DNA from: Lepraria neglecta
Taxonomy: Eukaryota > Ascomycota > Lecanoromycetes > Lecanorales > Stereocaulaceae
DNA length: 64,000 bases
Assembly: GCA_033220425.1 (NCBI GenBank)
Contig: CM065646.1
Coordinates: 255,501-319,500, forward strand
Direction: 5' to 3'
Numbering within the stretch: the stretch's first letter is position 1; the number at the start of each line of letters is the position of its first letter. A program made the position numbers and the translations under genes. The notes below the pieces were generated by a model, which did not search any database, was not told the origin of the DNA, and saw only the letters and a program-made list of their open reading frames with translations. Positions 38,887-64,000 of the stretch are shown here, one piece after another.

Positions 38887-39297
38887 TGTTAGAACCAGAG
38901 GGTTCTGACAGGACTGTCGCGAAGGACTTATGACTTCGGACAGGACAGGCAGGTGAAGCGATGATCGCAATGATCGCAGTGCGAGCAATACTATTAAGAA
39001 TGATGATCGCAATGATCGCAGTGCGAGCAAAGCTATCAAGGGTGCTTGGCAGGATTTCCTATATCTATATATACGGGGTTTTGCCCACTGTTTGAAGCAG
39101 TATATTTAACTTGGTTAATCTTCCTGGTAGTCCTTGCACTATACTTTACTAGTTATTAATATAGAACGTATTGATTACCTATAACGACGAAGACTGCCAT
39201 TCTACCTGAGTAACTCCTCTCCTACAGAAGTATAAGATATACGAACCCATATATAGCTATCGCACCATTAGGTATATAACCACCGTAGGTCGTAACA
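38887..39297 (+). repeat. 5' LTR of E1 (411 bp)
   Basis: Begins TGTTAGAACC and ends GTCGTAACA, so the ends are an inverted TGTTA/TAACA. It contains two tandem copies (about 40 bp) rich in GATCGCAATGATCGCAG, a TATATATACGGGG promoter-like box near 39062-39074, and the same 3' half as the LTRs of E2 and E3. Confidence 0.85.
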
Positions 39298-40283
39298 CTT
39301 TGAACACCCTAAAGGATGAGTTCTTTAACAACTTCAGGTAGAAACCCTACCCTAAGCACCTCAACGGTTACTGGCTAGAGATACTATACTATAGACGAAG
39401 GATCTGGAAAAAGGATCAAGGTTATAGTACTAGACCTGTACTACGGAGACAGAGACAAGCTTGAGCCATGGCTTACATAAGTATAACTATACCTACTGTT
39501 CCAGGGAGACTTGCTCCTAGCGACTAGATATACTACCTTCGCCATATTATACCTACGAGGACAGGCCTAGAAGTAGGTCGAACCTTTCCTAAAGAAGTAT
39601 ATAGAAGACGACGACGAGGACAGCGATGTTAAATCTTGGATAGAAAGTATACCAAAGTTTATAGTCGAAATCCGCCGTATATTCGGACCTTCTAACAAGG
39701 TAAATATAGTAATACGTATCATTTAGTATATAAAGTAGAAGAAGTTAGTGTTAGAGTTTTCAACTTAGTTTTAAATATACGCTACTAAGATAGGCTAGGA
39801 TAATAATACGCTGATAATAATATATTATTATAGCCTTAAAGATAATATTAAAGACGAGCTTATAAGATTCGGAGGAGTAATTAATACTCTAGACGAACTT
39901 ATTAAAAATACGATTAAGATCGATAATAAGCTATTTAAACGATCTATAGAGAAGCGGTATAATAGAGGAGTTAGCGGAACCCGATATAAGGGATTCTTCT
40001 CGAAAACGAAGAATTACCGATAAGACTACGGGGAATATAATACTTACCGTAGTATAGTACTAATAGAGATTAACTTTATATAGATAGGAAAGAAGAAAGG
40101 AAACTTTAAAGGGAAAAAGCAGCACGGGGGAAAGAAAGCAATTACTTACTATAGCTATAGTAAACTGGGCTATATAGCTAGAGACTACAGGTCGAAGAAT
40201 ATAGTATACCGACTACAGATTAATATAATAGAGGGAGGACCTCTAGATAACAAGGAAGACTCTAAAGAAATATAGTAACCCTA

Positions 40284-40715
40284 TATTAGAACTAGAGGGT
40301 TCTGACAGGACTGTCGTGAAGGACAGATGACTTCGGACAGGACGGGCAGGTAAAGCGATGATCGTAATGATCGCAGTGCGAGCAATGCTATCAGGAATGG
40401 TGATCGCAATGATCACAACGCGAGCAATGCTATCAAGAGTGCTTGGTAGGATTTCTTATGTCTATATATACGGGGCTTTGCCCGTTGTTTGGAACAGTAT
40501 GTTTAACTTAGTAAACCATTACTTGGTTAATCTTCCTGGTACTCCTTGCACTATACTTTACTAGTTATCAATATAGAACGCATTGACTACCTACAACTAC
40601 AAAGACTGCTATTCTACCTGAGTGACTCCTCTCCTATAGAAGCATAAGACGTATACCCCTATACGTTCGACTATTGCACCGTTAGGTAAACGGTCGGATG
40701 TAAGGGGTCGTAACA
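40284..40715 (+). repeat. 5' LTR of E2 (432 bp)
   Basis: Same ends and layout as the E1 LTR, including the GATCGCAATGATCGC tandem pair and the TATATATACGGGG box. It is 21 bp longer than the E1 LTR. Confidence 0.88.
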
Positions 40716-43700
40716 CTTTGAATACCCTAAGGGATGAGTTCTTTAACAACTTCAGGCAGAAACCCTACCCTAAGTACCTTAACGGTTACTGGCTAGAGAC
40801 GCTATACTATAGACGAAGGATCTGGAAAAAGGATCAAGGTTGCAGTACCGGACCTGTACTATGGAGACAGGGATAAGCTTGAGCCATGGCTTACGCAAGT
40901 ATAACTATACCTTCTGTTCCAGGGAGACTTGCTCCTAGTAACCAGATATACCACCTTCGCTATATCGTACCTACGAGGACGGGCCTAAAAGTGGGTCGAA
41001 CCTTTCCTAAAGAAGTATATAGAAGATGACAACGAAGACGGCGACGTTAAGTCATGGATAGAAAGTATACCAAAGTTTATAGTTGAAATCCGCCGTATAT
41101 TCGGACCTTCTAACAAGGTAAACGTAGTAATATATATCATTTAGTACATGAAGCAGAAGAAGTCAGTGTTAGAGTTTTCAACTTAATTTCAAATATACGC
41201 AACTAAGACGGGCTAGGATAATGATATACTAATGACGATGTATCGTCGGGGCCTTAAAGATAATGTTAAAGACAAGCTTATAAGATTCGGAGGAGTAATT
41301 GATACTCTAGACGGACTTATTAAAAATACGATCGAGATCGACGATAAGTTATTTAAGTAATCTATAGAGAAAAGGTATGATAGAGGAGTTAGCGGAACCC
41401 GGTATAAGGGATTCTTTTTAAAAACAAGGAATTACTAATAAGACTATAGGGAACGTAATACTTATTATAGTATAGTACTAATAGAGATTAACTTTATTTA
41501 GATAGGAAAGAAGAAAGGAAACTTTAAAGGGAAAAAGCAGCACGGGGGAAAGAAAGTAATTACTTACTATAGCTATAGCAAACTGGGTTATATAGCTAGA
41601 GACTACAGGTCGAAGAATATAGTATACTAACTACAGATTAACGTAATAGAAGGAGGACCTCTAGATAACGAGGAAGACTCCGAAGAAATATAGTAATTAT
41701 ACAATAAAGAAGAATCTAGTTAGGATTCGGAAGACGATACCTTCGAATCAGAATTCAATAAAGAAGTATAGAGATATTACTATAGGGATAGTAATAGATC
41801 TTAATAGTATAAGACAGATTAGGAACAGCGGAAAGCTAGTCCGGAGAGACTAGCGTTAATACCCGAACTTGGATCTACTATATCCCAAGTAGAAGGAAAA
41901 TTACTAGAAATCAACGAACCTTAATCGGACGAAGACAAATATAAACTCTTCGACGAAATCGAAAGTAAAGTATAAGGCGTATTAAATAAGCAATTATCTA
42001 TAAAACCCGGATAGGACGAACCTATACGAGACTATCAATACGATAGAGAACATTAGTAATATAGCGAGATTCTATATACTAAATGTATATTGCCCGATTA
42101 TTTAGTATATAGAGAAGAAAGGGGCCGTCTAGCGAAGGAGCACACAGTACCTCTACTTAAGAAAGCTTACTATAGAGAGATATAGTAGTATAAGTATAAG
42201 GAAGATAGGTACTAATAGTATCTTGCGAGTAAAAGGAAGTATTACTACTTCCTATACTTTATAGAAAAGTGGGAAAAAGAAAGGAATAACTTACTCAAAG
42301 TCTTTAAGAGAGGAGCTTGCAACTAGGTACTATAGTATAGCTACCTATATAACAAGTATATTCCGTATAAGGGTATAAAGGAAGTATACGGATTCCTACT
42401 ATTATAGGGAAAAGAGTAATCTCTTATACTACGGGGAAGCATAAGGAGATTAATGCGTTATTCCCCAAACAACAATTATGTTCCGCCTAATACTATACTT
42501 ATATTATTATACCAGTGAATATTAACGGATAGCGGACTGTAGCGATGATAGATAGCGGAGCTACAGGAAATTTTATCTCAAGGAACTTGGTAGACTCGAG
42601 CGGCCTACTAACCCGGAAGAAGAAATTATCTTATGAGCTATACCTGGCTGACGGGTTAGTATTCTCAATAGGAAAAGTAGAGGAGGAAACACTCTCCCTA
42701 CCAGTAATAATTTAGTAATACTACAAGGAGATTATATTCGACATAGTAGGGATGGCTACTTATAATATCATTTTGGGAATACCTTAGTTAAATAAATATA
42801 ACCTAGAAATCAACTGGAAGATAAAAGTACTTAAATTCGGATGATCTAGAAACGTTACTAGTATTAGACCTATTAGTTAATAGTAGACGATAATAGATAA
42901 GAGAAAGAACCGAAGACCGGTCGAAGTATATATTACTTTATTCTTAAATAATAAGAGTGACTTCTAAGAGAGAAGGCTCGACTCCTTAGTTACTAGTAAA
43001 GGTTAGCGGGATACTAAAGAGAGAGCTATTAAAGGGAAAGACGAACCTTCTGCGATCCCTCGGGAATATAAACGGTAGGTATACCTATTCGAGGAAGAGA
43101 CGAGCGTAAAAGCGTTGCCTAAGTACCAGCTATAGGATTATAAGATCGAACTCGAAACTGGCAAGGCGCCAACATTTAGACCTATCTATATATTATTAGA
43201 AAAGGAACTTACTATACTTCGCAGGTATATCGATAAGAACCTTAAGAAGGGATTTATTCGGGAATCTAAATTACTAGTAGGTTATCTAATCCTCTTCGCG
43301 CTAAAGAAGGACGGAAGCTTATAGCTGTACGTCGACTATCGAAAGTTGAACAATATTACTATAAAGAACAGGTATCCTTTACTAAATATCAGCGAGCTAT
43401 AGGATCGGCTTAGCAAGGTAAAGATATTTATAAAACTAGACCTTAGGGGCGTATATAACCTGATTCGGATGAAAGAAGGCGAAGAATGGAAAACTACCTT
43501 CCGAACTAGATATAGCTACTACGAGTACCTAGTAATACCGTTTGGACTTACTAACGTACCAGCAACCTGCTAAGTACTTATTAATAATATTATACAAGTA
43601 CACTTAGATCGAATAGCGATAGCGTACCTCGATAATATTTTGATCTACTCTGAGAAAAAGGAAGAATATATTAAGTATATATAGGACGTTATCGAATACC

Positions 43701-46081
43701 TGTCGTAAGCGGGACTTCTCCTTAAACCGGAAAAGTGCGAATTTTACAGGGACTCTATTAAGTTCCTAGGATTTGTAGTTAGTATAAAAGGTATTAGTAT
43801 AAGCCTAGAAAAGATCAAAGCTATAGCGGAATAGCCTATACTATAGGACGTCAAAGTAGTGCAAAGTTTCTTAGGATTTGCTAACTTCAATAGGAAGTTT
43901 ATCAAGGGCTACTCAAAGAAAGTACTTCTACTTATAGATATTACTAAGAAGGATATCGGATTTATATAGGGATAAGAATAATAAAAGTCGTTTGATACGT
44001 TAAAAAAAGCATATGCAGATCTACTAGTACTCTATACCTTTCAAGCTAACGAACCGGCTCGTATCGAAATAGATACCTTAGATCTTGTAATAGGAGTATA
44101 CCTTTGTCAAATGAAGGACCAAAAGTAGTATCCGGTTGCCTACTTTTTACGAAAGATATTAGTAGTAGAATAAAACTATAATATATACGATAAAGAACTA
44201 CTTGCCGTGGTATATATACTTTAGAACTAGAGGGTGTACGCCGAAAGCTGCTCGGACCTAACTATCTTTACGGATTACAAGAATCTTCTTAACTTTACAA
44301 TAACGAAAGAGTTAAATAGAAGACAAGTTAGATGGTTAGAATTACTCGGACAATATAAGTTCAAAATAACCTATACCCTAGGAAAAGACAATGGTCGAGC
44401 AGATGCGCTTAGTAGGCGATTAGACTATATGGAAGAAAAGAACGTCACGGAACGACCAATCCTAAAACGAGAAGCCGATGGATCATTAGTGCCGTTCGTA
44501 TATTAGGACCTGATATAACTAATAGGATCGTAAAGGTCTATATTAACGATATATTCGTAATAAAGCTAAGACAAGATCAACAAGATTTAGTATTACTTAG
44601 ATATTAGGAAAAAACTTACTTACCTAATATATACGTTAAGGAAGTGATTAGGGATTACCACGATAACCTACTATAAGGTTACCCTAGAGTATCTAAGATA
44701 ATAGAACTCCTAGGACGAGGATACGTAGCGCCGAAACTTCGGACACGCGTTGAATAATATATTAAGGAATATATTCAATACTAGTAGAACAAGTCTGTAC
44801 GATACGCTAAGTACGGGCAAATTCAGTTTGCGCCTGTACTAGAATCACTATAGGATGATATCATAATGGACTTTGTAGTTAAACTACTACCTTCGAAGGA
44901 TCCGGCTATATAGGATACCTTTGATTTAATTATAGTTATTATAGATAAACTCACCAAGTATATAATAATAATACCGTTCAAGGAGATATATAAGGCGGAC
45001 TAGTTAGCCTTTATACTACTCGATAAGCTAATAAGAGATTATAGTATACCTAAGTCGATAATATCCGATAGAGACAAGTTGTTCACTTCTAACTACTAGA
45101 GAACGCTGATAGTAATAATTGGGACTAAACTTCGGATATTAACGGTATACTATCTATAGACTAATAGATAGATAGAACGTACAAATTAAATAATAGAAGT
45201 ATATCTTAGATACTATATGAACCTAAAATAAGATAACTAGGTTTTACTACTTCTAATAGTATAATTAGTATATAATAACAAGAGATTAGATACGACGGGT
45301 CTAATACTATTCTTTGCCAACTACGGGAAGAATACGAATATATTTCTATAACCTAGGGACGGACCTAATATAGAAAAAGCCTTAGTTAAGGTAGAAGAGC
45401 TAAAAAGTTTATATAAGGATATATAAAAGATAATTAAAAGCTTAAATAATAAGATAAAGGAATAAGTTAATAGTAAAAGAAAGAATATTCCTCAGCTTAA
45501 AGAGGGGGATAAAGTATATCTCCTAATAAAAAATATAAAGATAATAAGACCAAGTAAGAAACTGGATTATATCAAGGTTAGACTATTCTTGATCAAGAAG
45601 GTAAAGGGGGCTGTTAACTATAAACTCGAGCTTCCTCCTAATGCTAAGGTATATCCGGTATTCTATATCTTACTTCTAGAGCTAGTAGACTCTAATATAC
45701 TACTCTAAGAAATATTTTATTATAATGTTAAGGAAGAAATAGAGTATAAGGTCGAGAGGATCCTAGATAGAAGAAATCAGTTCTATCTAGTTAAATAGAA
45801 AGGGTACGATAAAATAGAAAGTACCTGGGAACCTCTTAGGAACCTTACGGGGAACTATAGGGAATGTCTATAAGAGTTCTATTAGAGAGAAGAGAAGACT
45901 AGTCGAGGCTCTCAGGGATTTCTATCTCGTCGGGGAGATTGAACTACTCGGACAAGATATTGAATAATAAGTCGTCGGAAGATTTAGGAGCGACGTATTA
46001 GTCCTCCTCTAATTCCCTTATATTCTATAGCTCTCGGTCTACTATATTCTTTTTCTCCTTCTCAACTAAGTTTAATTATAC

Positions 46082-46363: not shown

Positions 46364-46840
46364 AAAGGATAGATAGTTTCTCGGGACGAGAAATCTGGAG
46401 GGGGAGGCTAGTATTAGAACTAGAGGGTTCTGACAGGACTGTCGTAAAGGACAGATGACTTCGGACAGGACGGGCAGGTAAAGCGATGATCACAATGATC
46501 GCAGTGCGAGCAATGCTATTAGGAATGGTGATCGCAATGATCACAACGCGAGCAATACTATCAAGAGTGCTTGGCAGGATTTCTTATATCTATATATACA
46601 GGGCTTTGCCCGTTGTTTGGAACAGTGTGTTCAACTTGGTAAACCATTACTTGGTTAATCTTCCTGGTACTCCTTGTACTATACTTTACTAGTTATCAAT
46701 ATAGAACGTATTGACTACCTACAACTACAAAGACTGCCATTCTACCTGAGTAACTCCTCTCCTACAGAAGCATAAGACGTATACCCCTATACGTTCGACT
46801 ATCGCACCGTTAGGTAAACGGTTAGATGTGAGGGGTCGTA

Positions 46841-46927
46841 CAGTCGATTGCAAAACCATTGGCGGGAACGCTAAGGCACTTTCGGGGTACCCCACCACAC
46901 ACCAAATTTTGGTGGCAGAAGGGGTAT
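46841..46927 (+). repeat. left terminal inverted repeat
   Basis: Matches the reverse complement of 50746-50832 with about three mismatches, all in the inner third. It contains the palindrome GGGGTACCCC (outer base 45-54) and an imperfect CCAAATTTTGG palindrome, likely transposase-binding or pairing sites. Confidence 0.92.
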
Positions 46928-47053
46928 CTAGGGAGGACTGTACTGTAGACCGTAGATGCAATTGAACATTTCTCAAAAAGGCAATAGTGAGGCCCTGTAG
47001 ACGTCATTCCTTGGTGTTTTGCTTGCCCACAACCACCTCCCTCGCTGTCCACT

Positions 47054-48138
47054 ATGGTCCTACCTATAGACCCATACACCAGGGCTGCTATTCAGCGAGA
47101 GCTTGAGCTCGGTTTCGATAACGACACCATTCTGCTTGGTGGATATGATGTTAGCCTGCGGACACTACAGCGTATGAGGAGAAGCTGGAGGATATATGGA
47201 GAGGTGTATATACCCAGTGAGAACCGCGGTGGGAGGCCAAGGGCTCTGCACCAAGTGTACGAGGAAGAGCTTTTGGCGTATTTGGAGCAACGTCCTATGG
47301 CTTATCTGGATGAGATGGCGTTCTTCCTCCTGGATGAATTTGATGTCCAGGTTGATGAGGCTACAATCTGGAGAGCTCTTACACGCATTGGTTGGTCTCG
47401 AAAGAAGTGCCGCAAGGTTGCTAAGGAACGCAACCAAGAGCTCCGAGACTACTGGTTCACCAAGCTCTCTGATTGGCGAGCTGACCAGCTTATATTTCTG
47501 GACGAGAGCGCTGCTTGTGAGCGTACAGGTGAGATCTCTTCTGATTGGCTGGTGCTTGCTAACAGTACTCAGGGGATCGAAAATTTGGATGGGGACCTCT
47601 AGGAAGAACACCGGCAGTTATACAGAACCTCAAGAGGAATAAGAGATGGAGTCTATTACCTGCCTTTACAATCGACGGTTATATCGATTGGATAATATAC
47701 CAGGGGCCCATTACCGCCGCGATGTTCAACGAATTCGTCCGAGATCGAATCCTCCCTCATTGCACTCCATACGAAAGCGGCGGTCCTATGTCTGTACTTA
47801 TAATGGATAATTGCAAGATACACTGGAACTCTGAGTTGACAGAGATGTGCCAGGAAGCAGGCGTTCGGCTCGAATATCTCCCTCCATATTCGCCAGATTT
47901 GAACCCTATTGAGACATCTTTCGCTGTGTTGAAGGCTTGGATGAAGAGACATCAGGACATTGGAGAGCTCTTTGCAACAGATAATACATATGGAGAATTT
48001 CTAAACTTAGCGGTAGAGGCTCAAGATCCATGGCCCGATGCAGGCAATCTCTTCCGCTTAGCAGGGATCGAATATGAGGGCATCAATAATGCAGTCAGAC
48101 AAGTAGAGGAGTCAGACGAGGAAGAAGGAGACATATAA
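47054..48138 (+). CDS. Tc1/mariner transposase, DD34E (DDE_3 superfamily)
   Basis: The transposase cuts and pastes the element at TA sites in the nucleus. Two exons, 47054-47528 and 47573-48138, flank a 44-nt intron (GTGAGA ... TTGCTAACAGTACTCAG, with an excellent branch site) that keeps the frame, giving 346 aa, the normal Tc1 size. The N-terminal third is a helix-turn-helix DNA-binding region (AAIQRELELGF ... VSLRTLQRMRRSWRIYG), with GRPRALHQVYEEELLAYL as the second helical unit. The catalytic triad is visible: LIFLDES (first Asp), VLIMDNCKIHW (second Asp), and LPPYSPDLNPIE (Glu, with 34 residues between second Asp and Glu). The C-terminus is acidic. No break was found. It is convergent with the accessory gene and may share a terminator region with it. 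Confidence 0.93.
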
Positions 48139-48187
48139 TTGTGTATATAATAAGAGGGAAAGCTTGCAATCTAGGTTATATATAGAT

Positions 48188-50605
48188 TTAGGTCTTTGCT
48201 TGAGTCTCCAGCTGAGTCTCTGCAAAACAGTCTGAATCACTAAGATTCGCTCCACCGTATAGATCGTATATATCCGGGTCATCATCCTGGGTCTCATCTT
48301 CATAAGCTTTCGTCTCAACAGACGGAATTATATGTCCCTGCTTATAGGACGTCTGCTGAGGCCTGCTTGCTAAACGCTGCCGCGATGGCGATAATGGGAG
48401 AGTTCTTCCTAGACCTCCAACATGAAGAGTCGTTTGAACCTGCCTCTCACGGCCCCATTTACTGACGTTTCTAGCCAATTGGCGGCCAATCCCAGGCTTA
48501 ATACCAAGCTTACGCCACTGCTCCTCATGCTCGTCATTCTTCCAGGCTTGTATGATATCTGTAGTATAGCCCTGATCCATAAGCTCGTCCTTAGCCTCCT
48601 CATATGCTTTTATGTATTCAGGGTGCTTTTTGCTTAACCATCCAACGAACTCGGCTAGTTCGCCTTCGACAGGGCTGCTATTTCGATAGGACGAGAGGCC
48701 TGGTGTTGCTGTGACTGAGCGAGAGATCGAGTGAGGGGGTCGAGTAGTTGTCTCAGTTGGATCCACGTCTCTAGAGCGAAGCTCTTTTATCAGATCTGAC
48801 GTTCTCGTGTCTCTCAGCGACTGGGGCCCTGATATCAGTGGCTGAAAGCCAGGCTGGAAGCTATATCCGTAGGGATACAAAGGCGGTGGCTGTCCAAACT
48901 GCCCTCCTATAGTAGGATAAGCAGGTGTAGTTGTAGGCTGTGTTGGTGTCTCAGTGGTATGTCGTCTCTTTTCTTTACGAGCCTCCTTCTTCTGCGTCTG
49001 CTGTAGTTCAACAAGTAAAGACGCAGGAGGCTCGTCGTCACTTATTCGACCTGTAGTATCTCTTAGGATAGCAACTGCCCACATCTTCGACTGCCTTGGA
49101 AGGAAGGGTATATGCTCGCCCTTATGCAAATAGCAATAGTGGCCCGTATTGCTGCATATAGAACTTTTGCAAGCCCATCGATTGTGTATTTCCTGTTGTT
49201 TTTGCCTCCAAGGCTCCCCTGCATTCGTCTCATCCATCTCCCCAAGAAGCCTATTAGTTGGGATATGTGTAGAGCCTCTTGCTGTTCCTGAAACAATCGT
49301 CCCAGGCTTCTTCTCAGCTGCTTTGCCAACTACGGGGATCTCCCCCGTGCTGTTACGGGCCCAATGGTATATAAGGTCCACCTGTAGGCCCTTCTTTCCG
49401 TCCTTCTGCCACTCCCGAAGCTCGTCTTCAACACTATACCAGTCCTGCTGCGTCTCGGCGGTGGTAGAACGTCGATTCGGCCCTGTAAGCTTCTCATAAA
49501 ATGGTGTTGCTTGGACTGAGACACGAAAGCAGGCGTGGCCTCTCTCTATAGCCCATTTAGCGGCGAATTCCTTCTGCTGATTATGCATAGTTCTAATAAG
49601 AATGTCGTTACTGCCATCGACAGTATAGTCCCGGAAGGTCTGGCTGCGAATAATCGAACTTTGGATGTCTTTCTCCCAGAATGACCTGACAGCAAGCTTA
49701 TATTTAAAAGCAACACGTCCTGGCGATTCGAGCTCGTCCTCACTATCCAGGTGTATCGAATTTGCCTTCCCCTTCTTCTGATTTGTAGTAGAACCGTGGG
49801 ATTGCTGACCAGCCGTAGACTGCGAGTTATCGACATCCTTTGGAGTCTCCTCACTCTCACCGAAAACGTCCTCCCTACGAGATATCTCCTTCCTAGCCTG
49901 CGTCCACCTCTTATTCGATTCACCTTCGACGCCTACGAACAGGCTTTCAGACGAATGGCGTCTTATTTGGGGCTGCTGGGTATCGAAATACGTCTGAGTG
50001 TTGGATAACTGAGTCTCGGGCCCAGCTCCATCAGAATCGTCATCCTCATCGAGCAGATCATGTCGAAATGAGGTTATAGACGTTCGAGACGGTGTATCTG
50101 GCACCAAATCAATTGCCTTCTGAGCTCTTGCCCTGAGGAATAGCGCTGAGGACGACTGCTGGCTTGAAAAGAGGCTAGACGAGACAGGTGGCGGTGGCAT
50201 ACTTGAGTGGAATGTACGGGGAGCATGCAAAGATCCGTCTATACTACAGGGGGGGCTTTGCTCGGGCTCTGGGGAGGGCTGCTTTGCTGGTTGAGAAGCC
50301 TTTTTAGAGGCCTTCTTAGCAGCTGGCTTCAAAGCTCGTTGAGGAGCTGCCTTGCCATCCTTTTTGGGCGGCGGTGGACGCTTCTCAGCCTGCTCAGGCG
50401 CCTGGGGTGGCTTCAGCACCAGCCGTCCAGATGGGGGGGCTGGCGGGTTGAGGGTCAGACGTCCAGGTGTCTGAGGGGCAGCAGCAGCAGCAGCAGGGGC
50501 AGGAGGCTTCAGGGTCAGACGGCGAGGTGTCTGGGCGACAGCAGGCTCTCTATCGACGGCAGCATACCTGTCAAACGTACTGGAACGACGCTTTCTGGGG
50601 CCCAT
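48188..50605 (-). CDS. 805-aa accessory protein carried by the Tc1/mariner element
   Basis: Uninterrupted, intronless 805-codon frame inside the transposon, opposite to the transposase. No family is recognised for certain. The N-terminus is basic (MGPRKRRSS) and then has three imperfect repeats of the form TPxRLTLKPPAP (residues about 25-70) and Lys/Pro/Ala-rich sequence. Residues about 150-290 are Ser/Asp-rich. A globular middle begins near residue 300 (FKYKLAVRSFWEKDIQSS) and includes DWYSVEDELREWQKDG. A Cys/His cluster CKSSICSNTGHYCYLHKGEH sits near residue 490, a pattern I associate with transposon-linked fungal proteins. A Pro/Tyr-rich linker follows. Near residue 670-740, FVGWLSKKHPEYIKAYEEAKDEL ... 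KLGIKPGIGRQLARNVSKW resembles a SAM-like helical domain. The product could bind DNA or RNA, assist transposition, or be an unrelated passenger. Confidence 0.85.
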   Translation of the reverse strand: MGPRKRRSSTFDRYAAVDREPAVAQTPRRLTLKPPAPAAAAAAPQTPGRLTLNPPAPPSGRLVLKPPQAPEQAEKRPPPPKKDGKAAPQRALKPAAKKASKKASQPAKQPSPEPEQSPPCSIDGSLHAPRTFHSSMPPPPVSSSLFSSQQSSSALFLRARAQKAIDLVPDTPSRTSITSFRHDLLDEDDDSDGAGPETQLSNTQTYFDTQQPQIRRHSSESLFVGVEGESNKRWTQARKEISRREDVFGESEETPKDVDNSQSTAGQQSHGSTTNQKKGKANSIHLDSEDELESPGRVAFKYKLAVRSFWEKDIQSSIIRSQTFRDYTVDGSNDILIRTMHNQQKEFAAKWAIERGHACFRVSVQATPFYEKLTGPNRRSTTAETQQDWYSVEDELREWQKDGKKGLQVDLIYHWARNSTGEIPVVGKAAEKKPGTIVSGTARGSTHIPTNRLLGEMDETNAGEPWRQKQQEIHNRWACKSSICSNTGHYCYLHKGEHIPFLPRQSKMWAVAILRDTTGRISDDEPPASLLVELQQTQKKEARKEKRRHTTETPTQPTTTPAYPTIGGQFGQPPPLYPYGYSFQPGFQPLISGPQSLRDTRTSDLIKELRSRDVDPTETTTRPPHSISRSVTATPGLSSYRNSSPVEGELAEFVGWLSKKHPEYIKAYEEAKDELMDQGYTTDIIQAWKNDEHEEQWRKLGIKPGIGRQLARNVSKWGRERQVQTTLHVGGLGRTLPLSPSRQRLASRPQQTSYKQGHIIPSVETKAYEDETQDDDPDIYDLYGGANLSDSDCFAETQLETQAKT

Positions 50606-50745
50606 AGCGACAGCGACAATGAGGTCTACAGTCTACGAGCGCGGGGGGAGACAAAACACCATATATGGGGCACTGGCGGCTTCATCTTTGCCGTTTTAGG
50701 AAGACTACATGAGCACTACTGCAGAGACAACGCAGCACTTTCTAT

Positions 50746-50832
50746 ATACCCGTTCTGCCACCAGAATTTGGTGTGTGGTGGGGTACCCCGAAAGTGCCTT
50801 AGCGTTCCCGCCAATGGTTTTGCAATCGACTG
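50746..50832 (-). repeat. right terminal inverted repeat
   Basis: Inverted partner of 46841-46927, ending CAATCGACTG next to the TA duplication. It serves as upstream sequence of the 805-aa gene. Confidence 0.92.
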
Positions 50833-51110
50833 TAACACCCTACGACGAAGAAGAATTCAATCAGGATTTAGAAGATAATACCTTCGAATTAGAATTTAAT
50901 AAAGAAGTATAGAGGTACTACTATAGGGATAGTAATAGATCTTAATAATACGAGACAGATTAGGAATAGCGGAAAGCTAGTCTAGAGGGACCAGTATTAA
51001 TACCCGAACCTGGATCTACTATATCCTAAGTAGAAGGAAAATTACCGGAAATTAAGGAACCTTAGTCGGACGAAGATAAATATAAACTCTTCGACGAAAT
51101 TGAAAGTAAG

Positions 51111-51520
51111 TGTTACGACCCACGGCGGTTATATACCTAATGGTGCGATAGCCGCGTATGGGTTTCGTGTGTCTTACGCTTCTGTAGGAGAGGAGTCACT
51201 CAGGTAGAATAGCAGTCTTCGTAGTGGTAGGTAATCAATGCGTTCTATATTGATAACTAGTAAAGTATAGTGCAAGGAGTACCAGGAAGATTAACTAAGT
51301 TGAACACGCTGTTCCAAGCAGTAGGCAAAGCCCCGTATATATAGACATATGAAATCCTGCCAAGCACTCCATGAGCGTTATGAGCGCTGGCGCTTATTGC
51401 GCTCATCATTCTTGAGCGCCATAAGCGCTGGCGCTCGTCGCGCTCATCGCTTCAGCTACTAGTCCTGTCTATAGTACCTTGTCCTACAGGATAGTCCTGT
51501 TAGAACCAATAGTTCTAATA
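51111..51520 (-). repeat. 3' LTR of E3 (410 bp)
   Basis: Begins TGTTACGACC and ends GTTCTAATA on the plus strand. Its U3-side tandem unit is built from GAGCGC/GCGCTGGCGCT motifs, unlike the GATCGCAATGATCGC unit of E1 and E2, while the promoter-box half is shared. Confidence 0.87.
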
Positions 51521-51568: not shown

Positions 51569-52092
51569 ATGCCTCCCCGTCGAACTATCCGTTCTAAAGA
51601 TCCCCTTATCCGTCGTAAAGAACTCTCTAGCGAATTATCTAGGTTCGTGATACGTCCTTATACTCTTTGTACTAAGGGTAATAAGTAATACTTGGTAGGC
51701 GTGCGTTTAGATCGTTGTTCTAACTGCGTGGCTGCAGGCAAGAAGTATAACCTAGTTATGTCTGTTAATGAGATACGTCGTATCAGGAAAGTCTATAACG
51801 ATACTTAGTCTGAAATAAAGGAAACGCAGGCGAAACTCATGCGCCTTTAATTACAATTCGATCATATCTAGGATAAAGAGAAAAAGTTAATTAAGCGCGA
51901 GTTATAGAATATCGAGGAGTTAGAGAAGGACAACCTTCCTTCTGACACTCCTGACGGTTTAATATTCAACGTCGGCTCCGAGCAGTTCGACCTCCCCCCC
52001 GGCCTCGAGGGTCCCGAGAGCTTCGACTGGTCTTCTCTTATCTCCGATGAAACTCTTATAGGCGTTCCCTACAATTCCCCGCAAGGTTCCTA
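51569..52092 (+). other. antisense reading frame of E3 (small Cys-containing protein), decayed
   Basis: Starts MPPRRTIRSKDPLIRRKELSS and continues with SRFVIRPYTLC and a CSNCVAAGKKYNL segment, a helical middle, and an acidic end near FDLPPGLEGPESFDWSSL. It is homologous to the antisense frame of E2 and lies in the same place between chromodomain and LTR. It is decayed, with several breaks. Confidence 0.55.
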
Positions 52093-55000
52093 AGAGGTTC
52101 CCAGGTACTTTCCGTTTCGTTATACCCTTTCTATTTAACTAGATAGAACTAATTCCTTCTATCTAGGATCCTCTCGACCTTATACTCTATTTCTTCCTTA
52201 ATATTATAGTAAAACATTTCTTAGAGTAGTATATTAGAGTCCGCTAGCTCCAGAAGTAAGATATAGAATACCGGATATACTTTAGTATTAGGCGGAAGTT
52301 CGAGTTTATAGTTAACAGCCCCCTTAACCTTCTTAATCAAGAATAGTCTAACCTTAATATAATCTAGTTTTTTACTTAGTCTTATTATCTTTATATTTTT
52401 TATTAGGAGGTATACTTTATCCCCCTCTTTAAGCTAAGGAATATTCTTTCTTTTATTATTAACCTACTCCTTTAACTTATTATTTAAGCTTTTAATTATC
52501 TTTTATATATCTCTATATAAGTTTTTTAGCTCTCCTATCTTAACTAAGGCTTTTTCTATATTAGGTCCTTCTCTAGGTTATAGAAATATATTTATATTCT
52601 TTCCGTAGTTAGTAAAGAATAGGGTTAGACCTATCGTATCTAACCTCTTATTATTATATACTAGTTATACTATTAGAAGTAGTAAAACCTAGTTATCTTA
52701 TTTCTAGTTTATATAATATCTTAGGTATACTTCTATTATTTAATTTGTACGTTCCGTTTATCTATTAGTTTATAGATAGTATATAGTTAATATCCGAAGT
52801 TTAGTTCTAATTGCTACGATTAGCGTTCTCTAGTAGTTAGAAGTAAATAACTTATCTCTATCGGATATTATCGACCTAGGTATACTATAATCCCTTATTA
52901 ACTTATCTAGTAGTATAAAGGCTAACTAATCTACCTTATACGTTTCTTTAAATAGTATTATAATTATATACTTAGTAAGTTTATCTATAATAACTATTAT
53001 CGAGTTAAAGGTATCCTACGTAGCTAGATCTTTTAAAGGTAGTAGTTTGACTATAAAGTCTATTATAATATTATCCTATAGTAACTCTAGTACTAGTATA
53101 AATTAAATTTGTCTATACTTAGCGTATCGTACCGCTTTATTTTACTAATACTAGATATATTCCTTAATATATTATTTAACACGAGTCCGAAGTTTCGGCG
53201 CTACGTATCCTCGTCCTAGGAGTTCTATAGTTTTAGATACTCTAGGGTAACCTTATAAAGGGTTATTATAGTAATCTCTAATTACTTCTTTAACGTATAT
53301 ATTAGGTAAGTAAGTTTTATCCTAATATTTAAGTAATACTAAATTCGGTTAATCCTATCGTAGCTTTATTACAAATATATCGTTATTATAGGCCTTTACG
53401 ATCCTATTAGTTATATTAGATCCTAATATATAAAGGGTCATTACTAATACCTAATATAGTACTAATAATCCATCGGCTTCTCGTTTTAGGATTAGTCGTT
53501 CCGTAATATTCTTTTCTTCTATATAGTCTAATCGCCTACTAAGCGTATCTACTCGACCGTTATCTTTTCCTAGGGTATAGGTTATCTTGAACTTATATTA
53601 TCTAAGTAGTTCTAACTATCTAACTTATCTTCTATTTAATTCTTTCGTTATTATAAAATTAAGAAGGTTCTTATAATCCGTAAAGATAGTTAAGTCCGAG
53701 TAGCTTTCCGCGTATACTCTCTAATTCTATAGTATATATACTACGGCAAGTAGTTCTTTGTTATATATATTATAGTTCTATTCTACTACTAATATTTTTC
53801 GTAAAAAGTAGGTAACTAGATACTACTTTTAGTCTTTTATTTAATAAAGGTATACTTCTATTACAAGATCCGAGGTATCTATTTTAATACGAGCCGGTTC
53901 GTTAGCTTAAAAGGTATAGAGTACTAGTAGATCTATATATACTTTTTTTAATGTATCGAACGACTTCTATTATTTATATCCCTATATAAATTCGATATCC
54001 TTTTTAGTAATATCCGTAAGTAGAAGTACTTTCTTTAAGTAGCCCTCGATAAACTTCCTATTAAAGTTGGTAAATCCTAAGAAACTTTGTACTACTTTGA
54101 CGTCCTATAGTATAGGCTATTCCGCTATAGCTTTAATCTTTTCTAGGCTTATACTAATACCTTTTATACTAACTATAAATCCTAGGAACTCTATAGAGTC
54201 CCTATAAAACTTGCACTTTTTAGGTTTAAGGAGAAGTCCCGCTTGTAATAGGTATTCGATAATATCCCGTATATACTTAACGTATTCTTCCTTGTTCTCC
54301 GAGTAAATCAAGATGTCGTCGAGGTACGCTATCGCTATTCGATCTAAGTATACTCGTATAACATTATTAATAAGTACTTAGCAGGTTACTAGTACGTTAG
54401 TAAGTCTAAACGGTATTACTAGGTACTCGTAGTAGCTATATCTAGTCTAGAAGGCAGTTTTCTATTCTTCGCCTTCTTTTATCTAGATTAGATTATATAC
54501 GCCCCTAAGGTCTAGTTTTATAAATATCTTTGCCTTACTAAGCCGATCCTATAGCTCGCTAATATTTAGTAAAGGATATCTATTCTTAATTATAATATTG
54601 TTTAACTTTCGATAGTTAATATATAGCCTTAAGCTTCTATCCTTTTTCGGCGCGAAGAGGATTAGATAACCTACTAGTAATTTAGATTCCTAAATAAATC
54701 CTTTCTTAAGGTTCTTATTAATATACCCGCGAAGTATAGTAAGTTCCTTTTCCGATAATATATAGATAGGTCTAAATATTAGCGCCTTACTAGGTTCGAG
54801 TTCGATCTTATAATCCTATAGCTAGTACTTAGATAATACTTTTACGCTCGTCTCTTCCTTGAATAGATATACCTATCGTTTATATTCCTAAGGGATTATA
54901 GAAGGTTCGTCTTTTCCTTTAATAGCTCTCTCTTTAGTATCCTACTAACCTTTACTAGTAACTAAGGAGTCGAGCCTTCTCTCTTAGAAGTTACTCTTAT

Positions 55001-57235
55001 TATTTAAGAATAAAGTAATATATACTTCGACTAGTCTTTAGTTCTTTCTCTTATCTATTATTATCTACTATTAACTAATAGGTCTAATACTAGTAACGTC
55101 TCTAGATCGTCCGAATTTAAGTACTTTTATCTTCTAGTTAATTTCTAGGTTATATTTATTTAACTAAGGTATTCCTAAAATAATATTATAAGTAGCTATC
55201 CTAACTATATCGAATATAATCTCCTTATAGTATTACTAAATTATTACTAGTAGGGAGTATATCTCCTCCTCTACTTTTCCTATTAAGAATACTAACCTAT
55301 TAGCTAGGCGTAGCTTATAGGATAATTTCTTCTTTCGGGTTAGTAGACTACTTAAGTCTACCAAGTTTCTTGAGATAAAATTTCCCGTAGCTCCGCTATC
55401 TATTATCGCTACGGTCCGCTATCTATCAATATTCACTAGTATAATAATATAAGTATAGTATTAGGCGGAACACAATTGTTATTTGGGGAATAACGCGTTA
55501 ATCTCCTTATACTTCCCTATAGTATAAGAGATTACTCTTTTCCCTGCGATAGTAGGAATCTATATACTTCCTTTATTCCTTTATACAGAATATATTTATC
55601 GTATAAGTAGCTATACTATAATACTTGGTTATAAGCTCCTTTCTTAAAGATCTTAAGTGAGTTATTTCTTTCCTTCTCCTACTTTTCTATAAAATATAGG
55701 AAGTAATAATACTTCCTTTTACTTACAAGATACTACTAGTACCTATCTTCCTTATACTTATACTACTATATTTCTCTATAAGGGGTTCTCTTTAGTAGAG
55801 GTACCGTATACTCTTTTACTAAACGGCCTCTCTCTTCCCTATATATTAAATAATCGGGTAATATATATTTAGTATATAGGACTTCGCTATATTACTAATA
55901 TTCTCTATCGTATTGATAGTCTCGTATAGGTTCTTCCCATCCGGGTTTTGCAGATAATTACTCTTTTAGTATACCTTATACTTTTCCTTCAATTTCGTCG
56001 AAAAGCTTATATTTATCTTCGTCCGATTAAGGTTCCTTAATCTCTAGTAATTTTCCTTCTACTTGGGATATAGTAGATCCAGATTCGGGTGTCGACGCTA
56101 GCCTCTCTAGACTAGCTTTCCGCTATTCCTAATCCGTCTTATACTATTAAGATCTATTACTATCCCTATAGTAATATCTCTATACTTCTTTATTAAATTC
56201 TAATTTAAAGGTATTATCTTCCGAATCCTAACTAAATTCTTCTTTATTATAGGATTACTATATTTCCTTAGAGTCTTCCTTATTATCTAGAGGTCCTCCT
56301 TCTATTACGTTAATCTACGGTCAGTATACTATATTCTTCGACCTGTAGTCTCTAGCTATATAGCCCAGTTTGCTATAGCTATAGTAAGTAATTACTTTCT
56401 TTCCCCCGTACTACTTTTTCCCTTTAAAGTTTCCTTTCTTCTTTCCTATCTAAATAAAGTTAATCTCTATTAGTACTATACTATAGTAAGTATTATATTC
56501 TCTATAATCCTATCGGTAATTCTTTATTTTTAAAAAGAATCCCTTATATCGAGTTCCGCTAACTCCTCTATTATACTATTTCTCTATAGATTATTTAAAT
56601 AACTTATTATTAATCTTAATCATATTTTTAATAAGTCTATCTAGAGTATCGATTACTCCTCCGAATCTTATAAGCTCGTCTTTAATATTATCTTTAAGGC
56701 CCTAATAATATATCGTTATTAGCGTATTATTATCCTAGCCTATTTTAGTAGTATATATTTGAAACTAAGTCGAAAACTCTAATACTAACTTCTTCTACTT
56801 TATATACTAGATAATATATATTACTATATTTACCTTATTAGAAGGTCCGAATATATAGCGGATTTCGACTATAAACTTTGGTATACTCTCTATCTATAAC
56901 TTAACGTCGCTATCTTCGTCGTTATCTTCTATATACTTCTTTAGGAAAGGTTCGACCTACTTTTAGGCTCGTCCTTATAGGTACGATATAGCGAAGGTAG
57001 TATATCTAGTTACTAGGAGCAAGTCTCCCTGGAATAGAAGGTATAGTTATACTTGCGTGAGCTATAGCTCAAGCTTGTCCCTATCTCCGTAGTATAGGTC
57101 TAGTACTATAACCTTGATCCTTTTTCCAGATCCTTCGTCTATAGTATAGTATCTCTAGCTAGTAACTATTAAGGTACTTAGGGTAGGGTTTCTACCTGAA
57201 GTTATTGAAGAACTTATCCCTTAGGGTATTTAAAG

Positions 57236-57645
57236 TGTTATGACCTACGGCGGTTATATACCTAATAGTATAATAGCCGCGTATAGGTTTCGTATATCTT
57301 ATACTTCTATAGGAGAGGAGTTACTTAGGTAGAATAGTAGTCTTCGTAGTAGTAGGTAATTAATACGTTCTATATTGATAACTAGTAAAGTATAGTGCAA
57401 GGAGTACTAGGAAGATTAACCAAGTTGAATACGCTATTCCAAGTAGTAGGCAAAGCCCCGTATATATAGATATATGAAATCCTGCCAAGTACTCCATGAG
57501 CGTTATGAGCGCTGGCGCTCATTGCGCTTATTATTCTTGAGCGCCATGAGCGCTAGCGCTCGTCGCGCTCATCGCTTTAGCTACTAGTCCTATCTATAGT
57601 ACCTTGTCCTACAGGATAGTCCTATTAGAACCAATAGTTCTAATA
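57236..57645 (-). repeat. 5' LTR of E3 (410 bp)
   Basis: Same length and layout as 51111-51520, including the GCGCTGGCGCT-type tandem unit; it is followed on the right by the GTAAG duplication. Confidence 0.87.
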
Positions 57646-59328
57646 GTAAGGTATAAGGTATACTAAATAAGTAATTATCTATAAAACCCGGATAGGAAGA
57701 ACCTATACAAGACTATTAATACGATAGGGAATATTAGTAATATAGTAAAGTTCTATATACTAAGTGTATATTACCCGATTACTTACTATATAGGGAGGAG
57801 AGGAACTGCCTAGCGAAAGAGTATACGGTATCTCTACTAAAGAGAACCTCTTATAGAGAGACCTAGTAGTATAAGTATAAGGAAGATAGGTACTAGTAGT
57901 ATCTTATAAGTAAAAGGAAGTATTACTATTTCCTATACTTTATAGATAAATAGGAAAAGGAAAGGAATAACTTACTTAAAGTCTTCAAGGAAGGAGCTTA
58001 TAACTAAGTACTATAGTATAGCTACCTATACGATAGATATACTCTATATAAGGCTATAAAGGAAATATACGGATTCCTATCGTTATAGGGAAAAGAGTAA
58101 TCCCTTATACTACAGGGAAGTATAAGGAGATTAATACGTTATTCCCTAAATAATAACTATATTCCGCTTAGTATTATACTTATATTATTATACTAGTAAA
58201 TATCGATAGATAGCGGACCGTGGCGATAATAGATAGCGGGGCTATAGGAAATTTCATCTTAAGGAACTTAGTAGACTTAAGCGGCCTACCGACTCGAAAG
58301 AAGAAATTATCCTATAAACTTCGCCTAGCTAATAGGTTAGTATTCTTAATAGGAAAAGTAGAGGAGGAAACTCGCTCCCTACTAGTAATAATTTAGTAAT
58401 ACTATAAGGAGATTACATTTGATATAGTTAGGATAGCTACTTATAATATTATTTTAGGAATACCTTAGTTAAATAAATATAATCTAGAAATTAACTAGAA
58501 GATAAAAGTATTTAAATTCGGATGATCTAGAGATATTACTAGTATTAGACCTATTAGTCGATAGTAGACGATAATAGATAAGAGAAAGAACCGAAGACCG
58601 GTCAAAGTATATATTACTTTATTTTTAAATAATAAGAGTAGCTTCTAAGAGAGAAGGCTTAACTCCTTAGTTACTAGTAAAGGTTAGTAGAATACTAAAG
58701 AGAGAGCTATTAAAGGGAAAGACGAACCTTCTATAATCCCTCAGGAATATAAATAGTAGGTATACCTATTTAAGGAAGAGACGAGCGTAAAAGTATTACC
58801 TAAGTACTAACTATAGGATTATAAGATCGAACTCGAACCTAGTAAGGCACCGATATTTAGACCTATCTATATATTATTAGAAAAGGAACTTACTATACTT
58901 CGCGGGTATATTAATAAGAACCTTAAGAAAGGATTTATTCGGGAATCTAAATTACTAGTAGGTTATCTAATCCTCTTCGCGCCGAAGAAGGATAGAAGTC
59001 TAAGGCTATATATTAACTATCGAAAGTTGAACGATATTACTATCAAGAATTATTACCCTTTACCAAATATTGGCGAGCTATAGGATTAGCTCGGTAAGGC
59101 AAAGATATTTACGAAGCTAGACCTTAGGGGCGTATATAATCTAATCTAGATAAAAGAAGGTGAAGAATGGAAAACTACCTTCCGGACCAGGTATAGCTAC
59201 TACGAGTACCTAGTAATACCGTTTAGACTCACTAACGTACCGGCAACCTGCCAAGCACTTATTAATAACGTTGTACGAGTATACTTAGATCGAACAACGA
59301 TAGCGTACCTCGACGATATCTTGATTTA

Positions 59329-59843
59329 TGTTACGAACCACGTTGCGTACGGTGGTCCGTTATATATAGATTGATTCTTAATAGGGATAGAGGTACAATA
59401 GAGCAAGAGGGTGAAGCAGGCTTCAAGTGATACTAAGCGGGTCTGGTATATAATCAGATAATATATGTTTAGTGCCTAGCCTAAGAGATCTATTGCATGT
59501 AGTAAACAATTGAATAGTAAGTTGAGCACGATGCTCCAAGTGGTGCGAGCAGTGCTCCGTATATATAGACATACGAAATCTATGCCAAGCATTCCTGATC
59601 GCACTGGTCGCACTGATCGCACCGCGCTTATTGCGACCACTGCGCTTATCGCTTAACATGCCAAGCCTTCTTGATCGCACTGATTGTACTAATCGCACCG
59701 CGCTTATTATAACTACTGCGCTCATCGCTTAATATGCCAAGCCTTCAGGGTCTGTCCGAGTCGGATACCGATTCGTCGACTCGAACTATAACGGGCGCTA
59801 CGCTCCTTGAGCGTATCCCTAATCATGTTTCCTGATCGTAATA
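59329..59843 (-). repeat. 3' LTR of E4 (about 515 bp) with internal tandem repeat
   Basis: Starts TGTTACGAACC. It holds two tandem units of roughly 75 bp at about 59,580-59,745 (TGCCAAGC ... TGATCGCACTG ... ATCGCACCGCGCTTAT ... CGCTTAA). A TATATATAGACATACGAAATC box is shared in position with the other LTRs. Confidence 0.8.
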
Positions 59844-59889
59844 TTAGCTCCCTCTCCCAGATTTCTCGTCCTAAGAAACCATCTATCCT

Positions 59890-60440
59890 TTATACTACCC
59901 CGATATACTAAACGTTTAGATAAACCGACCGTCCGCCGAACGGTGTTGGCTAGTAAGCTAACCGAAGTCGTGATACGGCCGTGTTCCCGATATGTTGCCA
60001 GCGGCAAGCAGTACTTGATAGGTATAGGTTCCGACAGGTATTCTAACTGTATAGGCAGCAGTAGAAAATGCGACCTTGTAGTATCGCCCCTTAAGATATA
60101 TTATATCGAGATAGAATAAAAGGAAGCGTAGTTATAGTTAAAAACTACGCGCGAAGAGTTAGCTCGTAATACGGAAGAGTCTATACGTCTTTAGGCCATA
60201 CTAATACGCCTTTAGATATAGTATAAATAACTTGAAGATAAAAAGCGGAAGATTATAGACTAAGAGATATAGAATATTAAGAAGTTAGAAGAAGACTAGT
60301 AGTCTATCCTAAGTATTCCTGATAGCTAGATATTCAACGTCTCGTCCGAATAGTTTGGCTTCCTAGATAGAACCGATTGGTCCTCCTTCCCGATTATTCC
60401 CGGAACTCCTATAGAAGGTCCTAGTAGTTCCGGAGGTTCC
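59890..60440 (+). other. antisense reading frame of E4, decayed
   Basis: Encodes stretches homologous to the E2 and E3 antisense frames (VASGKQYLIG, SSRKCDLVVSPL). It starts close to the LTR and is opposite to pol. It is decayed with many breaks. Confidence 0.5.
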
Positions 60441-63400: not shown

Positions 63401-64000
63401 ATTAAACGCTACTAATATATAGGTATAATCCTAGTAATATTTCCAGATTGATCCATCTTGAGTACTCCTCGAGCCTAATCGATTATTAGGTTATACTTCT
63501 TTAACCAAGGTATTCCTAAAATTATATAATAGGTAGCTATCCTAATAACGTTAAAGGTAATCTCCTTATAGTAGCGCTAAATTATAATAGGTAACGAAAG
63601 TATCTCTTTATCTACCTTTCCTATTAATAGTATTAACCTATTAGCTATCTAAAGATTATACTACTACGACTTCTTTCAAGTTAGTATTCTAGTTATTTAT
63701 ACTAAGTCTCGCGAGATAAAGTTTCCAGTAGCTCTAGAATCTATTATCGCAACGGTCCGCTATCCGTTAATAATTACCGGTATCTTTATATATATATCGT
63801 ATTGCGCGGAATATAGATATTATTTAGGGGTTAATATATTGATCTCCTTATAGCTACCCCTACTATAAGGGATTACTCTTTTCCCGCTTGTAGGAGTAGG
63901 AACCCTACCTTTAACTTCGACTATATATACTTCTCGTAGTTATCGTGTAGATAGGCGTACTATTCTATTAAATGGTATTCTCTAGCACTTAGGTTATTAT

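Follow-up and report, generated by a model that had tools for sequence, protein, structure and literature searches.

A two-protein IS630/Tc1/mariner-type transposon from Lepraria neglecta with a candidate self-encoded transposition cofactor

Tc1/mariner elements are the textbook example of transposons that need a transposase alone, hence the ease with which they cross between species and their use as gene-transfer tools. Here we describe a transposon of this type with two genes, found at positions 46841–50832 of a 64,000 nt stretch of DNA (the window; bases 255,501–319,500 of contig C1) in the 42.0 Mb, 11-contig genome of Lepraria neglecta (Ascomycota; Lecanoromycetes; Stereocaulaceae), a lichen-forming fungus. 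From sequence comparisons, we favour on balance the reading that the second open reading frame (ORF), here named ORF2, encodes a cofactor that the element supplies for its own transposition.

The initial annotation of this region took Tc1/mariner elements normally to carry only a transposase, which is right for most of them, but exceptions with several genes have been published (PMC7325037, PMC3627910). Tec and TBE of ciliates are multi-gene DD34E relatives of Tc1/mariner; Tec has a gene on the opposite strand, and TBE has a zinc-finger protein. They differ from the Lepraria element in their three ORFs and ciliate germline setting, and are likened to it by description, not by sequence (PMC7325037). 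Other published Tc/mariner elements carry one extra gene or two, among them Fanzor1, endonuclease and methyltransferase genes; these genes vary even among closely related elements, as sporadic capture would produce (PMC3627910). In contrast, a single ORF2 family, with no recognised nuclease or methyltransferase domain, stays in place across four families of the element described here. Multi-gene Tc1/mariner elements are already known, and by domain content ORF2 appears to match none of the extra genes described in the available parts of these reports.

Among fungal elements, TremE of Paracoccidioides has been reported as Tc1/mariner-like with two ORFs, but these lie in succession within 1,883 bp; the 70% similar TremD (1,891 bp) has a single ORF of 559 aa (PMC2836289). 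From this, we take the two ORFs of TremE to be probably two parts of one gene. Tc1-OP1 of Ogataea is also a large fungal Tc1 element (5,659 bp), and its product has an extra serine-rich domain; however, it has a single ORF of 1,155 aa, a DD40E triad and, in the description available, no second gene (PMC9977792). Styx of Zymoseptoria is a fungal DNA transposon with accessory genes, among them genes for CCHC and GATA-domain proteins, but it belongs to the IS3EU superfamily and has four genes in 7.9 kb (PMC10853768). The closest functional parallel, by analogy, may be PIF/Harbinger, with two genes and an accessory protein that diverges faster than the transposase yet is kept; in the parts of the account available, the Myb-like protein of Harbinger is the partner of the transposase at the terminal inverted repeats (TIRs) (PMC9179366). 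PIF/Harbinger transposases belong to a different superfamily from the IS630/DDE_3 transposase found here, and ORF2 has no Myb/SANT match. The available parts of PMC3441728, PMC4112212, PMC5872316, PMC3562529 and PMC4202319 make no mention of Tc1/mariner elements with a second gene. Our literature search, which did not extend to Repbase and most subscription journals, found no description of the present element, and absence from print is not claimed.

Direct reading of the sequence confirmed a complete two-gene element of 3,992 bp with exactly the boundaries first assigned to it, and with TA immediately outside both ends (46839–46840 and 50833–50834). The TIRs (46841–46931 on the transposase side, plus strand; 50742–50832 on the ORF2 side, minus strand) had been given as 87 bp; as BLAST aligns element positions 1–91 with 3902–3992 (96.7% identity), they are approximately 91 bp, and the inverted pair of 108 nt at 92% returned by the repeat finder is partly flank. 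The transposase gene is on the plus strand. Its first exon (47054–47528) includes the HTH_32 and HTH_33 matches and the first catalytic D, and its second (47573–48138, with the stop codon at 48136–48138) includes the second D and the E. The reading frame and a related transposase place a 44 bp intron between them (47529–47572; GTGAGATC...TGCTAAC...CTCAG, with ends GTGAG...CTCAG). After splicing, the transposase is 346 aa, complete as first annotated, and matches DDE_3 in Pfam (E 1.7e-29), with HTH_33 above the cut-off and HTH_32 below it; in NCBIfam it matches IS630 NF033545 with 140.6 bits against a cut-off of 100. The catalytic spacing, counted by hand, is DD34E. ORF2 (48188–50605, minus strand) is, as annotated, open throughout its 805 codons and convergent with the transposase gene, with 49 bp between its end and the stop codon of the latter. 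By DDE_3, DD34E, the TA duplication, TIRs and an N-terminal helix-turn-helix, the element belongs to the IS630/Tc1/mariner superfamily, and its DDE_3, HTH_32, HTH_33 and NCBIfam IS630 matches liken it to the IS630-like branch. It departs from the single gene in 1.3–2.4 kb that is typical of the superfamily (PMC4188875) in its size of 4 kb and its second, conserved gene.

When the genome was searched, at least 41 matches to ORF2 and at least 43 to element positions 1–220 were returned; these searches score the best candidates only, so copy counts are lower bounds. Among the matches listed, ten copies of this family (family A) are complete from end to end and 3,972–4,004 bp long: the window copy, L031, L033–L036 and L037–L040. 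All ten have both the transposase gene and ORF2 between their TIRs, and no family-A TIR pair enclosing a transposase without ORF2 was found among the matches listed. Thus, the possibility raised in the initial annotation that most copies lack the second gene finds no support among these matches. L031 is a second site with a sequence identical to the 3,992 bp in the window, and L033–L036 are identical to one another and, at 3,991 bp, one base shorter, such that six copies differ by at most one base. As there is an identical second copy, four copies that differ by one base and four more of 3,972–4,004 bp, the element is not a chance arrangement, and the six near-identical copies must have moved recently or since the last exposure to repeat-induced point mutation (RIP). 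TA flanks were seen by eye at the aligned ends of seven of the ten copies; in the other three, one or two terminal bases have changed and TA lies just beyond them. In L035, the 3,991 bp element interrupts another family-A sequence, an approximately 164 bp deletion derivative, precisely at a TA within it (L035 1064–5220), which provides a clean empty site. This and other sites fit insertion at TA, and the mode of movement would be cut-and-paste. We conclude that the element is a young, recently active DNA transposon in which both genes, held within one TIR pair, move as a unit, as the initial annotation had proposed.

Shorter family-A derivatives that lack both genes are L063 (approximately 1 kb) and the 164 bp target in L035. 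L032 has kept ORF2 and the adjoining TIR and lost the transposase side, and two further sets of TIR matches (on C7 and C2), paired by eye, appear to bound interrupted copies in which portions of each gene persist. Two of the full-length copies, L039 and L040, are mosaic, and by eye their ends are CC/GG, not CA/TG. In both, divergence is much greater in the transposase region than in ORF2, the opposite of what is seen between families A and B (below): transversions number 40/1083 in the transposase and 24/2387 in ORF2 for L039 (Fisher p 3e-7), and 41/1080 and 27/2390 for L040 (p 8e-7). The simplest reading is that lineages have exchanged sequence close to where the two genes meet; a differing local rate would be the alternative.

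Three further families pair a transposase with a convergent ORF2. The family-B transposase is 55% identical to that of family A over the C-terminal half and 47% over the full length, and at least 11 near-identical copies are present. All 11 have 89 bp TIR matches at both ends, a transposase and an ORF2 match on the expected strand and in the expected place, and the matched part of ORF2 is free of stops in each (from the first residue in seven, from residue 28 or 31 in four), for a query spanning 418 residues of the first exon frame, which has 648. The copy on C1 is approximately 4,047 bp and flanked by TA, and family-B ORF2 corresponds to a 696 aa database protein (P0003), the last part of which comes from a second exon. 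Family C is represented by an intact pair at L056, with a transposase of 340 aa from its ATG that also has DD34E spacing by hand count, and an opposite-strand ORF2 whose stop-to-stop frame is 686 codons. Its HTH_32 and HTH_33 matches are both under the Pfam cut-offs, and it is 34% identical to the family-A transposase (range among A, B and C, 31–47%). The element has 134 nt inverted repeats (97.8%) and, as delimited by TA flanks read by eye, is 3,566 bp long. A second family-C locus, L060, matches to element position 1,350 only, and no second TIR was found in the stretch read. Family D (L062 and L057) is a decayed pair with the same convergent layout and a 53 nt inverted repeat at 87%; L058 is a copy of its ORF2 side, with no transposase within the 5 kb read. 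The frames that flank the family-D element (L057 3243–4343; L062 2–916) look by eye like those of a HET-domain protein and ankyrin repeats.

After merging, the genome searches gave 68 loci for the transposase and as many for ORF2. At 37 of the former, an ORF2 lies no more than 6 kb away, convergent in 35 and on the same strand in two. In the copies of families A–D that were read, pairing of transposase and ORF2 is the rule. At two loci (L059 2366–2748 and C5:240979–241643, both minus strand), a C-terminal piece of ORF2 lies approximately 50 bp from a piece of transposase in the same orientation, which departs from the convergent arrangement found elsewhere. Two isolated, decayed ORF2-like stretches, L054 and L055, have no convincing transposase match within the 3.5 kb read. 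At C6:1025832–1027089, inverted family-B TIR matches 1.26 kb apart, with neither transposase nor ORF2 among the matches listed, probably mark a non-autonomous derivative.

Between families A and B, ORF2 is more diverged than the transposase (24% against 47% identity), and the relationship among the ORF2 proteins was examined by profile comparison. The A/B group (the window ORF2, P0002, P0003 and P0004) and the C/D group were joined by hhalign (96.3%, E 1.7e-9) over 149 columns around a cysteine motif, which supports their homology. In the window ORF2 this motif, C479-x4-C484-x6-C491-x6-H498 (49112–49171, minus strand), is a putative zinc site that occurs once and is common to families A–D; the general form, C-x4-C-x5-7-C-x6-7-H, was found once in each of the six ORF2s scanned (A, P0002, B, P0004, C and the first part of D). 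A conserved C-terminal stretch (residues 638–722; SSPV ... LGIKPGIGRQLARNVSKW; 48440–48694, minus strand) is 35% identical between A and B, and family C is 44% identical to each of two D copies in the corresponding stretch. SSP[IV] follows the cysteine motif by 160–169 residues in all five ORF2s that have the later part in the same sequence.

Profile searches of the 805 aa protein, which the initial annotation had recommended, gave no convincing family match in Pfam, NCBIfam or PDB sequences. Weak matches were set aside by eye: in Pfam, below the cut-offs, NtrY_N for P0004 (E 0.12), SDH_alpha for the D fragment (E 0.07) and three short pieces (E 0.029–0.25); five PDB chains (E 0.046–0.82) to the N-terminal part of family-C ORF2; and PHROG matches to the window ORF2 (E 0.36), P0003 residues 444–660 (E 6.5e-4) and L056 ORF2 residues 146–250 (E 0.002), which fall in stretches with few residue types. 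A Myb or recognised nuclease identity has no convincing support in Pfam, NCBIfam or PDB sequences. A SAM-like, five-helix C-terminus is retained as a tentative lead, with no SAM match in five C-terminal pieces and no support across families. Capture by a mariner element of a Fanzor/TnpB-type nuclease, or of a similar homing function, would have precedents in the published Fanzor1-carrying Tc/mariner elements and in the occurrence of Fanzor1 in some fungi (PMC3627910, in the part available), and ORF2 does have a cysteine motif. However, that motif is C3H rather than the C4 of OrfB_Zn_ribbon, and no pfam07282 or RuvC match was obtained with the ORF2s of A, P0002, P0003, P0004 and C or the D fragment (the long motif was not scanned), so we consider this identity extremely unlikely.

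When ORF2 was used to query protein databases, P0001–P0004 were the sole matches, and P0001 and P0003 are hypothetical proteins of L. neglecta itself. One of these searches scored the best 8,000 candidates by shared words and, as the searches need shared 5-residue words, distant fungal relatives could be missed. No relatives were found in viral contigs or prokaryotic genome contigs, and neither the genome nor, within the same limit of 8,000 candidates in one search, the protein databases yielded a host gene that matches ORF2. The initial annotation had also allowed that ORF2 might be a known host gene found mainly outside TIR pairs, and no such gene came to light in these searches.

Selection on ORF2 was assessed by Nei-Gojobori comparison of nonsynonymous and synonymous substitution rates (dN/dS) with the window copy, and against a neutral expectation in which the same substitutions were placed randomly in the same sequence contexts in 400 runs. 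Six old copies gave ORF2 dN/dS values of 0.39 (L032), 0.48 (L041), 0.32 (L042), 0.50 (L043), 0.48 (L039) and 0.68 (L040), with 1, 9, 0, 24, 3 and 34 runs, respectively, at or below the observed value. These results fit purifying selection on ORF2, which is clear in four of the six. The control, L038, which has almost only RIP-type changes, gave 1.05 for ORF2, with 349 of 400 runs at or below the observed value, and 341 of 400 for the transposase. Outside the simulation, ORF2 dN/dS was 0.59 in L037 (bootstrap 0.28–1.27), 0.67 in L044, 0.82 in L045 and 0.73 in L046. Transposase values were 0.14 in L039 and 0.24 in L040, with none of 400 runs as low in either. As the copies are related, the per-copy tests are not independent.

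These data bear on one of the three roles that the initial annotation had offered for the second protein. A captured host gene or passenger with no role in the life cycle of the element would agree with the movement of copies in which ORF2 is frameshifted (described below) and with the failure of profile searches to find homology to known transposon proteins. It is at odds with the presence of homologous, convergent ORF2s in families A, B and C, whose transposases are only 31–47% identical, with the signal of selection on ORF2 between lineages, and with the lack of a clear non-transposon homologue in the genome (the surroundings of the relics L054 and L055 are ambiguous) or in protein databases. 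As all four families have an ORF2 homologue placed next to the transposase and convergent with it, this role is disfavoured and we regard it as very improbable; the other two, silencing antagonist and helper, remain. ORF2 is probably no late capture, and would be a long-standing helper rather than a passenger. The convergent genes, long shared TIRs and Cys3His motif, together with selection that is weaker on ORF2 than on the transposase, could also suit a self-regulator, namely a protein that binds DNA as a repressor or limits copy number, in competition with the transposase for the TIRs. However, a repressor should be easily lost in competition between copies, yet ORF2 has been kept in four families, and sets of 6 and 11 near-identical copies speak against tight repression. 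We give a self-regulator little credence.

RIP has left its mark on decayed copies. In L038, L039, L040, L044, L045 and L046, the rate of C-to-T change is 0.29–0.87 at CpA and 0.00–0.26 at CpC or CpT; in L040, for example, 277 of 508 CpA sites have changed and 25 of 615 CpT sites. L032 and L043 show little CpA bias, and in L042 CpG is the most affected (44/165). As six decayed copies have the CpA to TpA bias, silencing pressure on the element is real, which gives a reason to consider ORF2 as an anti-silencing factor that acts against RIP, DNA methylation, small RNAs or heterochromatin, and so keeps the transposase expressed while taking no part in cut-and-paste. ORF2 diverges fast and looks largely disordered, as might be expected of such a factor, and a trans-acting one would permit the spread of copies with a frameshifted ORF2. 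Against this, copies that carry ORF2 have undergone RIP mutation all the same and thus show no obvious protection by it, and profile searches recognised no methyltransferase, RNA-binding or chromatin domain in it. An anti-silencing role is therefore rather unlikely in our assessment.

The surroundings of the window copy differ from it in composition. The GC content is 50.5% in the element, and 36% and 32% in the 7 kb stretches at 39–46 kb and 52–59 kb. AT-rich blocks (29–43% GC per kb; window 39001–46000 and 52001–64000) surround the element, as expected for RIP-degraded repeats. The insertion is flanked by inverted arms resembling long terminal repeats (46749–46816 and 51134–51200), and the element lies at a TA where the left arm ends. 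Repeats related to these arms cross the insertion point by a few bases only (for example, C1:296162–296216, 93% identity, four bases past), and hence provide a weak empty site.

The role for ORF2 that we favour is that of transposition cofactor. The transposase would cut and paste at TA, and ORF2, itself non-catalytic and with long, disordered-looking linkers, would bind the transposase, the terminal DNA or both through its Cys3His region, which is probably zinc-binding. It may aid import or the assembly of a synaptic complex, as the Myb-like protein of Harbinger might suggest by analogy.

Several observations weigh against a cofactor role. The ORF2 frame is intact in only two of the ten full-length family-A copies, the window copy and L031. 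In the 3,991 bp copies L033–L036, four of the six near-identical ones, a run of seven G (G7; 50249–50255) is G6, which shifts the ORF2 frame, yet these copies are found at four TA sites. ORF2 is thus not strictly required in cis, or else the G7 run contains an assembly error. L037 has 1 bp and 13 bp deletions in ORF2, and the compared frame contains 29 stops in L038, 13 in L039 and 38 in L040. Selection on ORF2 is not clear in two of the six copies simulated (L043 and L040), and the constraint is weaker than that on the transposase. In family C, L061 has both TIRs but lacks ORF2 residues 69–531, although two stops interrupt its transposase as well. Where a transposase locus is matched over 350 bp or more (51 loci), no ORF2 was recognised within 6 kb in 18 cases: one (C8:2186) is at a contig end, another is L060, and the other 16 are unread. 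Conversely, for 31 of the 68 ORF2 loci there is no transposase in the surrounding 6 kb; many of the 31 are short or decayed pieces, and L032 and L058 belong to them. The C-termini of the A/B and C/D ORF2s were not joined by hhalign (0.1%). Monopartite and bipartite nuclear localisation signal patterns occur in ORF2 about as often as in shuffled sequence, and hence provide no evidence for a role in nuclear import.

The spread of the frameshifted copies, if it does not reflect an assembly error, implies that ORF2 is trans-acting or dispensable for a while. As these copies were also amplified, ORF2 can probably be supplied in trans, and a cofactor remains the role that we consider somewhat the more probable for it.

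More tentatively, ORF2 could be the founder of an unrecognised family of cofactors that has accompanied an IS630-type lineage, dependent on such a partner, since before at least four families separated. Many other fungal proteins would then probably be partners of this kind, although the searches described above, which need shared 5-residue words, brought none to light beyond Lepraria and two contigs. If the cofactor role is correct, the L. neglecta element would be a test case for a DDE/D element of the Tc1/mariner superfamily that depends on, or is improved by, a cofactor of its own, and would give an identity to fungal proteins that are otherwise unannotated.

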